From Pseudomonadota bacterium (GTDB taxonomy: Bacteria > Desulfobacterota > Binatia > Binatales > Binataceae), in NCBI GenBank assembly GCA_021323945.1, contig JAJPKA010000020.1, forward strand, positions 806,001-870,000: a stretch of DNA of 64,000 nt, written 5' to 3'. Position numbers and translations under genes: made by a program. The notes under the pieces are model-generated. The model was not told the DNA's origin and ran no database searches. It was given only the letters and a program-made list of their open reading frames with translations. This document shows positions 50,246 through 58,516 of this stretch, one piece after another (position 1 is the stretch's first letter; every line of letters begins with the position of its first letter).

Positions 50246-51028
50246 TCAGCGCCGATCTACGAAGACGCGTTCTTTTGCCAGCCAGATTGCGGAATTCGCG
50301 AAGTCGATGAACCGAGCCTCGTCCTCGATCGCGATTTCGATCGCACGCTTGCCTTCAGGTGTACTACCGGCCAGCGCGAGATCGGAGCGATCGAACCAGG
50401 CCTCAGCATGTCCAATGTACGGTGCGACCTTGGTTCCGCGGCTATCGCGCAACTGTTGCTCGAGTTCATCCTCGAATCTGTGGACCTGTACATAGCGCCG
50501 AATGCGCATGGCAGATGCTATACCCCGAATGGTTGGACCGTGGCTGGTTCGCCAATAGAGCTGCGCCTGGTCCATTGTCATGTTTGATGGAGAGCGGAGA
50601 CAGAAAAAAAGCTTGACCAGCGAGCTGTGTTCACGTGCTACCAACTCCTCAGGCACCGGGTTTACCTGAGGATACTCATATGCCAACCACAGAGGCGAAT
50701 TAGGCAGATCTATAAATTTAGTCTCGTCCTCGAGCAACTCGCGTCCCGCAGCTTGACCGGCATCGCTGTTTAAACCGGCCACGAGTGCTTCGCGGCTAGT
50801 CCACCACAATTCAGCGACTCCGTCGTAAGCCGACTCCATGCGGCCACGTGAATTCGCTAGTTGCTGGTTCGCGGGATCATCAAGCGTATGAACTTGAATA
50901 TATCGCAGGATACTGAGTGTTGTAGCATGCTTGGCGACGAGTGGCCCATGCACCGTGCGCCAATAGTCTTGAAATTCAGCCCGCGACATGCCCGGTTTGC
51001 GCCGTAGCAGATAGGTTAGACGAATCAT
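50246..51028 (-). CDS. Tandem EthD-domain protein
   Basis: A 260-residue protein built of two copies of the EthD (dimeric alpha-beta barrel) domain. Repeat one starts at MIRLTYLLRRKPGMS with DYWRTVHGP (about 21-29) and RYIQVH; repeat two starts near residue 138 with LVKLFFCLRSPSNMT, LYWRTSHGP and RYVQVH. Each ends in an acidic DE-x-x-FIDL/F-NSP/A-x-WLA element, so an internal duplication is certain. EthD proteins accompany cytochrome P450 ether degradation and other oxidations, and related folds bind heme or aromatic substrates. Here the partner upstream is a Rieske protein, 89 bases away on the same strand. ATG at 51028 was chosen because GAGGCA precedes it. Confidence 0.87.
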   Translation of the reverse strand: MIRLTYLLRRKPGMSRAEFQDYWRTVHGPLVAKHATTLSILRYIQVHTLDDPANQQLANSRGRMESAYDGVAELWWTSREALVAGLNSDAGQAAGRELLEDETKFIDLPNSPLWLAYEYPQVNPVPEELVAREHSSLVKLFFCLRSPSNMTMDQAQLYWRTSHGPTIRGIASAMRIRRYVQVHRFEDELEQQLRDSRGTKVAPYIGHAEAWFDRSDLALAGSTPEGKRAIEIAIEDEARFIDFANSAIWLAKERVFVDRR

Positions 51029-51117
51029 GCTGTTGCCTCGCTTCCAAGTTGATCTTTGCTTTGTAATCTGCCGCGCTGAGCGCAGCTCCGGAGAAAGCAA
51101 AGTTTGACCACTGCGGC

Positions 51118-51942
51118 CTAGGGTTCTGGAATGAACTCGACTAACGCATTTGCAGCCTCGTCGATTCTGACTTGCGGCGCAGCCGGCAACCTCAGCTTTG
51201 CGCCGCTCACACAGCGTCCCGTGAGAATGTCATACCGATAGCCGTGCCACGGACACTCGACAATACCATCGCAAACCTCAGACTCAGCGAGTGACCCCAG
51301 CATGTGGGGGCACAGTGTTGCATAGGCAACTAGTTTCCCATGGTGTTCGACGATCCGATAGGTCCGGCCGTTGCAATCCAGAGTAAAAGGGACTCGTGCT
51401 CGAACCTCCGCCAAGGGCCCCAGCACGATGGAAGCTCTTTTTTTGTGCATCTGCTTGTCAAGAAGGTCCAGCTGTAATTGCCGCTCGGACATCATCCTGA
51501 CGTCTTCATCGTAGAGTCTTGAATAGAGCTTGGTATAGAAGCGTGCCAGCTCACCTCGTCGGCCCTGCTCTACTCCCGGGACAAAGAAATCTACGACCAC
51601 CAACGTGGCGTTCTCGCTGATGGAAAACGCGTGGGTCCACACCTCGGTTCCCTTTCCAGGACCATCGAGCGTGGTGGTGATCCATCGCCGCAATTCGGGC
51701 TCGAGGCGGAGCTCGATAACTATACCGCGATTCTCCTTATACGGATGCGGCCAAACACGGGCTCGAAAACCCCACGCTCCCGCGTCATGGCATTCGATTC
51801 GAGCGAAGCTACTTCGATGAAGGAAAGGAAGATGTTCCCAGTCGATAGCGTTTTCGTACAGTCGCTGGATGCTGACGGGTAGTTCGCGCCGATAGGTACC
51901 GACATGTGGCACCTTCCGGTCTGCATATGAATCGCTGCTCAT
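51118..51942 (-). CDS. Rieske protein with oxygenase-like N-terminus and C-terminal Rieske domain
   Basis: A 274-residue protein. The C-terminal Rieske [2Fe-2S] site is complete: C211 and H213 in TLCPHMLG, and C230 and H233 in VECPWHGYRYD. The N-terminal part begins with YENAIDWEHLPFLHRSSF (about 29-46), matching the mononuclear-iron motif of Rieske oxygenases (D34, H37, H42). DEDVRMMSERQ at about 145 resembles the segment with the third carboxylate ligand. In canonical Rieske oxygenases the Rieske domain comes first, so the order is reversed here. The protein is shorter than usual oxygenase alpha subunits (about 420). ATG at 51942. Likely an oxidation of an unknown hydrophobic substrate with the EthD partner. 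Confidence 0.83.
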   Translation of the reverse strand: MSSDSYADRKVPHVGTYRRELPVSIQRLYENAIDWEHLPFLHRSSFARIECHDAGAWGFRARVWPHPYKENRGIVIELRLEPELRRWITTTLDGPGKGTEVWTHAFSISENATLVVVDFFVPGVEQGRRGELARFYTKLYSRLYDEDVRMMSERQLQLDLLDKQMHKKRASIVLGPLAEVRARVPFTLDCNGRTYRIVEHHGKLVAYATLCPHMLGSLAESEVCDGIVECPWHGYRYDILTGRCVSGAKLRLPAAPQVRIDEAANALVEFIPEP

Positions 51943-58138: not shown

Positions 58139-58516
58139 TCAGCTTTTCATTTGGTCAGTAAACATCTTCATGTCGAAGTAATCGCGCCAAGCCTTGATCT
58201 TGCCGTTGGGGGCGGTCTCGAAGACTCCCGCCACCGGTAGCGACATGCGCTTACCGTTAACTTCAAATGAATCAATCCGCTCGTTGAAAACCAGATGACC
58301 GGAAGAAGCCGAGTTGAGAATCTTAAATTCGAGCCAGGTCGTGCCCTTGAGCAGACCTTCGATGGTCTTGCGGATCGCTTCCTTGCCGGTGGCCGGCTTC
58401 AATGGGATGTTGTGATAAACGGCATCCTCGGTGAAGAATTCCATTATTTGATCGAGATTCAAACGCGACCAAGTTTTACAGAATTCACTAACAATGCTTT
58501 CAGCCTCACTCGACAT
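58139..58516 (-). CDS. Limonene-1,2-epoxide hydrolase family protein
   Basis: A 125-residue cone-shaped alpha+beta barrel enzyme. The five residues used by limonene epoxide hydrolase are all present at the right spacing: Y34 and N36 in VYHNIPL, R80 and D82 in ERIDSF, and D112 in WRDYFD. PVAGVFE lies between them, as in the family. It probably opens an epoxide to a diol in the cytoplasm; other family members act as SnoaL-like isomerases. ATG at 58516 has GGAGGA about 7 bases upstream; the longer frame to 58681 has no support. It is the last gene of the ABC transport group, 106 bases after the AAA-associated domain gene. Confidence 0.88.
   Translation of the reverse strand: MSSEAESIVSEFCKTWSRLNLDQIMEFFTEDAVYHNIPLKPATGKEAIRKTIEGLLKGTTWLEFKILNSASSGHLVFNERIDSFEVNGKRMSLPVAGVFETAPNGKIKAWRDYFDMKMFTDQMKS

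Follow-up and report, generated by a model that had tools for sequence, protein, structure and literature searches.

Rieske oxygenase (RO) alpha subunits such as SxtT/GxtA, VanA, DdmC, KshA and CntA carry a Rieske domain first and a catalytic domain behind it, the latter belonging to the SRPBCC/Bet v 1 fold class. Stand-alone Rieske ferredoxins (AndAb, HcaC, CarAc, the NDO ferredoxin and structure entry 3d89, which we take to be mouse RFESD) are separate proteins, and the caffeine N7-demethylase NdmC/NdmD is a split RO in which the Rieske domain resides on the reductase. In excerpts of a 2025 review, the structurally characterised ROs are described as C3-symmetric oligomers in which electrons pass from the Rieske cluster of one subunit to the iron of its neighbour, the distance between the two centres being about 12 Å between subunits versus about 45 Å within a subunit (PMC12445004); transfer of electrons between oligomer subunits is described for conventional ROs in parts of this and a second paper (PMC12445004, PMC7948474). 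The review excerpts also discuss fusion of redox partners to ROs and state that no self-sufficient RO has yet been identified (PMC12445004). Among the matches listed from the open-licence literature, no characterised RO with reversed domain order appears in the titles and abstract openings.

The window, the whole 64,000-nucleotide stretch of a Binataceae draft genome that we analysed, encodes on its reverse strand (51118–51942, ATG start) a 274-residue protein in which this order is inverted: the catalytic domain comes first and a Rieske domain of ferredoxin type second. Like the RO alpha subunits, it has the Rieske [2Fe-2S] ligand set and, as judged from sequence, an N-x2-D-x2-H-x4-H motif, a putative third Asp ligand and a candidate bridging acid; unlike the stand-alone ferredoxins, its Rieske domain is fused behind a catalytic domain. 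The protein is shorter than 27 motif-bearing conventional ROs, whose stop-to-stop frames span 292–476 amino acids. A preliminary description of this DNA had placed an iron-like motif in the N-terminal half of the protein and the Rieske ligands in the C-terminal half, and all of the residues it named carry the numbers it gave them. The two reading frames that it reported, 51118–51942 (274 amino acids) and 50246–51100 (284 amino acids from a TTG), are both present on the reverse strand, and its statement that canonical ROs have the opposite order agrees with the Rieske motif coming first in 27/27 conventional frames in which both motifs were found. We consider it likely that the protein is a non-heme iron oxygenase of the Rieske type whose architecture is inverted, probably a catalytic domain fused to a Rieske ferredoxin.

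The RO-type catalytic domain, of the SRPBCC helix-grip fold, occupies approximately residues 13–163 (51454–51906, reverse strand, as are all features of this gene), as delimited by the structural model, fold matches and profile match. It contains the motif N31-x2-D34-x2-H37-x4-H42 (51817–51852), with the predicted bridging Asp and two putative iron ligands, and D145-E-D147 (51502–51510), of which D147 is the likely third ligand. A short linker (approximately residues 164–170; 51433–51453), variable in length across the family described below, leads into the Rieske domain (approximately residues 171–263; 51154–51432), where the cluster ligands C211-x-H213 and C230-x2-H233 lie (51244–51312). Pfam recognises the two halves separately and not as one family, assigning Rieske to residues 173–247 (E 1e-13) and matching VanA_C, an RO catalytic family, weakly at residues 25–54 (E 0.013; 16.0 bits, below the cut-off of 23.5). 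No reductase domain was found in the Pfam scan of the 274 residues, so the protein is not self-sufficient, and the window protein matched none of the NCBIfam models at their own cut-offs. Within the window, no Rieske remnant upstream of the gene was found by motif, the gene itself apart, and a scan for promoters and terminators gave nothing over chance.

The structure prediction and structure-database search that the preliminary description had proposed were both carried out. The AlphaFold2 model of the monomer (mean pLDDT 91.3, pTM 0.82) shows an SRPBCC domain with a Rieske domain behind it, and its pTM suggests a defined packing of the two predicted domains, no more. Residues 7–160 match Bet v 1/SRPBCC folds (Z up to 16.3, for a cytokinin-binding protein, at 2.4 Å over 135 residues), to which the protein adds the putative iron triad of ROs. 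In the model H37 lies in helix 35–41, H42 just after this helix and D147 in the long helix 126–163. RO catalytic domains hold their iron in such a helix arrangement, and the predicted secondary structure and fold put the three residues where an RO catalytic domain would have them. All of the whole-model matches listed (50 of 1515 Foldseek matches and 50 VIA-align entries) were SRPBCC proteins, with no RO among them; this absence is not evidence against the RO reading.

Sequence profiles connect the N-terminal half with RO catalytic domains. VanA_C was the most frequent Pfam match of the 24 aligned N-terminal domains (21/24 at E≤0.1), and its curated cut-off was passed by three of ten relatives scanned singly (L006, L011 and L058). 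A single comparison of the N-terminal profile with 35 frames of conventional ROs encoded in related genomes gave E 1.8e-7 and a probability of 93.8, and its 145 aligned columns bring both the D-x2-H-x4-H motif and the third Asp into register; the catalytic motif was detected in 27 of these frames, and the motif search found none in the other 8. When the profile was trimmed, the probability was 96.0, as against 0.41 with the profile reversed and 0.22 with the Rieske profile of the family. This trimmed comparison aligned only 27 columns around the motif, with the third Asp outside that stretch, so the 145-column comparison is the only one that sets the register of D147. Searched against solved structures, the N-terminal profile gave no significant match (best SxtDIOX, E 0.37). 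The window protein as a single sequence matched SxtT and SxtDIOX (GxtA) through their Rieske parts, residues 195–254 aligning to SxtT chain positions 39–92 (20.7 bits), and the catalytic-half pieces of both scored just 4–5 bits. The second SxtT piece, which is not significant (4.1 bits), pairs residues 22–43 with chain positions 149–170, that is, in swapped order, and puts D34 on Asp161, one of two residues (with Tyr76) to which a paper assigns a bridging role between the Rieske cluster and the iron (PMC7293229). A mononuclear iron triad of the His-His-Asp type and a bridging acid are present at the level of sequence, and D147 is probably the third iron ligand.

The window protein belongs to a family of 30 distinct members (28 distinct frames after duplicate removal, its own included, plus L102 and L103), which we refer to as the inverted-RO family. 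The 27 full-length members all have the reversed order; as for the remaining three, L010 is cut, L049 loses frame and L012/L058 has a catalytic domain but no Rieske domain. In an alignment of 24 of the 28 frames, from which three partial frames and L041 (a near-copy with undetermined letters) were left out, N31, D34, H37, H42, D145, D147, C211, H213, C230 and H233 are invariant in the window protein and its 23 relatives (24/24), at identities to the window protein of 33–64%. Since all 24 keep every ligand, the reversed order is not a product of chance. No frame of the 13.5-kb locus of L012/L058 contains a Rieske motif, so the pairing of the two domains is not absolute. NdmC/NdmD provides a precedent for such an RO catalytic unit lacking its own N-terminal Rieske domain, although there the Rieske domain is on the reductase, whereas in the window protein it is joined behind the catalytic domain in a single chain.

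Members were found in Candidatus Binataceae/Binatia, Polaribacter, Saprospiraceae, Pseudomonadales, Thalassolituus, other Gammaproteobacteria and one Deltaproteobacterium, so that the family spans Binatota, Bacteroidota and Gammaproteobacteria among others. Matches covered the catalytic-domain residues in 12 of 57 genomes (the window's own included) and were full-length in 10 of those 12, and a scan of genome contigs yielded 20 loci, of which 19 are family members and one, L050, is not. The N-terminal-domain profile matched 5 of 395 genomes of the window's phylum, 1 of 296 in the phylum of genome G437, and 2 of 398 in the phylum and 2 of 44 in the family of genome G440, the centre genome being counted each time. 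The matches reported, from searches the larger of which scored part of the first-look candidates, all belong to the inverted-RO family, with no conventional RO among them at E 1e-4. No family member was found among phage (searched with the N-terminal domain alone), plasmid or viral sequences; three plasmid matches are confined to the Rieske part. The family is rare and patchily distributed across several phyla.

We compared the C-terminal domain, which reached a pLDDT of 92.8 when modelled alone, with both ferredoxins and ROs. In VIA-align no RO appeared before Z 10.9, behind 26 entries that are all ferredoxins or proteins of NirD type (Z 13.1 to 11.0); many of the 26 represent one ferredoxin, CarAc, and because entries less than Z 1 apart count as tied, a clear lead over the ROs belongs only to the uppermost ferredoxin entries. 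Foldseek returned ferredoxins and ROs mixed, with an RO, KshA5, as first match. Comparison of the family's Rieske profile gave E 2.4e-29 with ferredoxins, which had been found by similarity to the query, versus 2.9e-18 with the Rieske domains of ROs, and median scores were 45.7 bits for 17 short Rieske frames versus 25.8 for 55 ROs, in sets drawn mostly by Pfam family. At E 0.001 the 24 members matched eight NCBIfam families, all of them other Rieske families and four of them dioxygenase-type ferredoxins; that of the ferredoxin AndAb matched 16/24. In a 104-row tree of Rieske domains, the 24 family domains form one clade (100/100), which lies outside a clade of all 55 RO rows and 4 others (90/92, not starred, on few columns). 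This tree leaves many forks unresolved and connects the inverted-RO family by a long branch. L008 and L009, whose ligand spacing is longer, were dropped from it, and its comparison set came from Pfam searches, with ten short-frame places picked and one added from the 57-genome search. Two of the 17 rows labelled 'fd', an identical pair on a long branch, are apparently spurious frames, and L166, L169 and L187, which carry the label 'oth', are ferredoxins whose upstream reading is spurious. In sequence and in VIA-align fold comparison the C-terminal domain resembles stand-alone Rieske ferredoxins more than it does the Rieske domains of ROs; Foldseek ranks an RO first, so that the fold comparisons agree only in part, and the tree position leans towards the ferredoxins within the limits just given.

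An architecture of this kind could have arisen by true circular permutation, both domains descending from one conventional RO whose Rieske domain had moved to the C-terminus. The presence of both RO domain types with all their ligands and the KshA5 match would fit such an origin, which is opposed by the placement of the family outside the RO clade, the stronger profile comparison and higher median with ferredoxin-type frames, and the precedence of 26 ferredoxin or NirD entries in VIA-align, each read within the limits given above. We regard permutation as unlikely: the RO affinity of the N-terminal half, taken together with a Rieske domain of ferredoxin type, speaks more for the joining of an RO catalytic domain to a Rieske domain of this type than for a single RO that was simply permuted. 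It is more improbable still that the protein is no oxygenase at all and that an SRPBCC ligand-binding or cyclase-like domain carries a fused Rieske domain as redox sensor or electron carrier. The best fold matches of residues 7–160 are indeed hormone-binding, PR-10 and polyketide-cyclase proteins, and Polyketide_cyc2 is matched by 5/24 members; such binders are not expected to possess the RO iron triad and bridging Asp, residues that are invariant throughout the alignment, and VanA_C is the most frequent match. The window derives from a draft genome of 22 contigs, and two unrelated pieces might have been joined by assembly or gene calling, a reading with a negligible chance of being correct that is refuted by the same domain order in 27 full-length members from many separate assemblies.

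The preliminary description had further proposed that the oxygenase forms a pair with the next gene on the strand, said to encode two fused EthD domains that could handle the substrate. Pfam does find two EthD stretches in the neighbouring protein. Its homologues align from 'MIRL', so the start is probably the ATG at 51028, which gives a 260-residue protein (50246–51028, reverse strand) and a gap of 89 nt to the oxygenase gene. Adjacency on the same strand is what a dedicated two-gene system would display, and elsewhere the tandem-EthD protein does occur near conventional ROs: full-length orthologues (48–80% identity) are present in 13 of 56 other genomes searched, and the Rieske profile detects a conventional RO in the retrieved flanking sequence (at most about 6 kb, and less where a contig ends) of 3/13 of these loci, a count to be read against RO density, given that 21 Rieske matches occur in the 4.7 Mb of G022, which is among the three. 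Direct adjacency was seen once, in G022 (L144), where RO alpha and beta genes directly follow the EthD gene on the same strand. None of the 13 flanks contains an inverted RO. Conversely, among 34 loci around inverted-RO genes, several of which cover the same contig and whose flank lengths vary, EthD was detected at E≤0.01 only in the window. In G001, a genome of the same genus, the block SDR-SDR-argS-SPOR-EthD-amidase is kept (56–89% identity) without the inverted RO, which that genome has on contig C298; the interval between EthD and amidase instead holds a 2-thiouracil desulfurase/DUF1722 gene and an SDR-like gene. Given this synteny and the 34-locus survey, the pair is a local juxtaposition, and EthD as a conserved partner is rejected; we hold a dedicated two-gene system to be very improbable. 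Thus, of the compact oxygenase with an EthD partner that had been envisaged, the RO-like protein with reversed order and full ligand set is supported and the two-gene system is not. The EthD protein, which falls outside the conserved context of the inverted-RO family, may be a general accessory of catabolic clusters.

Clustering of long frames around the family loci revealed no conserved neighbour of the inverted RO among the matches listed; the frames were crudely chosen, and in some GC-rich loci the RO frame itself was displaced. At least 11 non-RO neighbour clusters are common to three to five loci, most of them resting on the near-identical L040/L041/L044 or L035/L036/L049. SnoaL-like proteins are encoded nearby in two lineages (L055/L056 and L058), a number too small for any conclusion. 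In the former, two genomes of one genus, a SnoaL_2/limonene-epoxide-hydrolase-like frame (L055:7308–7835, L056:1519–2073) overlaps the end of the inverted-RO gene. In the latter, the lone catalytic domain related to the inverted RO (L058:6145–6762, genome G038) adjoins a SnoaL_4 protein. One of two conventional RO beta subunits scanned scores weakly with a SnoaL model, and a frame at 58142–58498 of the window (reverse strand) is weakly similar to the SnoaL-like neighbour of L055 (E 5.9e-6). Some hand-picked neighbours of inverted ROs suggest a lipid/CoA theme (thiolase-like, patatin, enoyl-CoA hydratase, MeaB).

Other Rieske proteins were encountered in the course of these searches. The window's own genome encodes a 557-residue frame (L070; G000:C8, around 456194–456415) in which Pfam finds Rieske at 26–99 and p450 at 230–523, that is, a cytochrome P450 with its own Rieske-type redox domain fused at the N-terminus. 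L171 (G053:C24, around 95171–95389), read by eye, places a Rieske domain before a thiamine-pyrophosphate-enzyme-like part in one frame, and two plasmid matches are annotated as thiamine-pyrophosphate enzymes, like this reading. On a Longimicrobiales contig, L050:4846–6225 joins a NifU-like domain, recognised by eye, to a following Rieske domain in one frame. Two genomes of the window's family, G002 and G003, show a very large expansion of Rieske proteins, with 60 Rieske-domain matches in 3.7 Mb and 77 in 3.9 Mb, versus 11 in the window's genome.

Returning to the inverted Rieske oxygenase, we infer a mode of action by analogy with conventional ROs. The N-terminal SRPBCC domain would hold the catalytic iron through H37, H42 and D147, with D34 as bridging acid, and the C-terminal ferredoxin-type domain would supply electrons from a [2Fe-2S] cluster bound by C211, H213, C230 and H233. 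A reductase, with or without a ferredoxin, would reduce the Rieske cluster, from which the electron would pass via D34 to the iron; O2 would then be activated and a substrate, probably hydrophobic, mono- or dioxygenated. Such a protein probably originated when an RO catalytic domain without an N-terminal Rieske domain of its own became fused to a Rieske ferredoxin.

The swapped order and the ferredoxin-type Rieske domain raise the question of whether the C3 inter-subunit geometry is obligatory, and the inverted RO offers a natural test of how Rieske oxygenases pass electrons. For engineering, it is relevant that the window protein joins a catalytic domain and a ferredoxin-type domain in a naturally occurring fusion. 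Tentatively, and with more doubt than confidence, we entertain the possibility that electrons travel within one subunit, from its own C-terminal Rieske cluster to its own iron, so that no conventional head-to-tail trimer would be needed. If this is true, the inverted-RO family would be a class of Rieske oxygenase that was assembled independently and in which electrons take another path.
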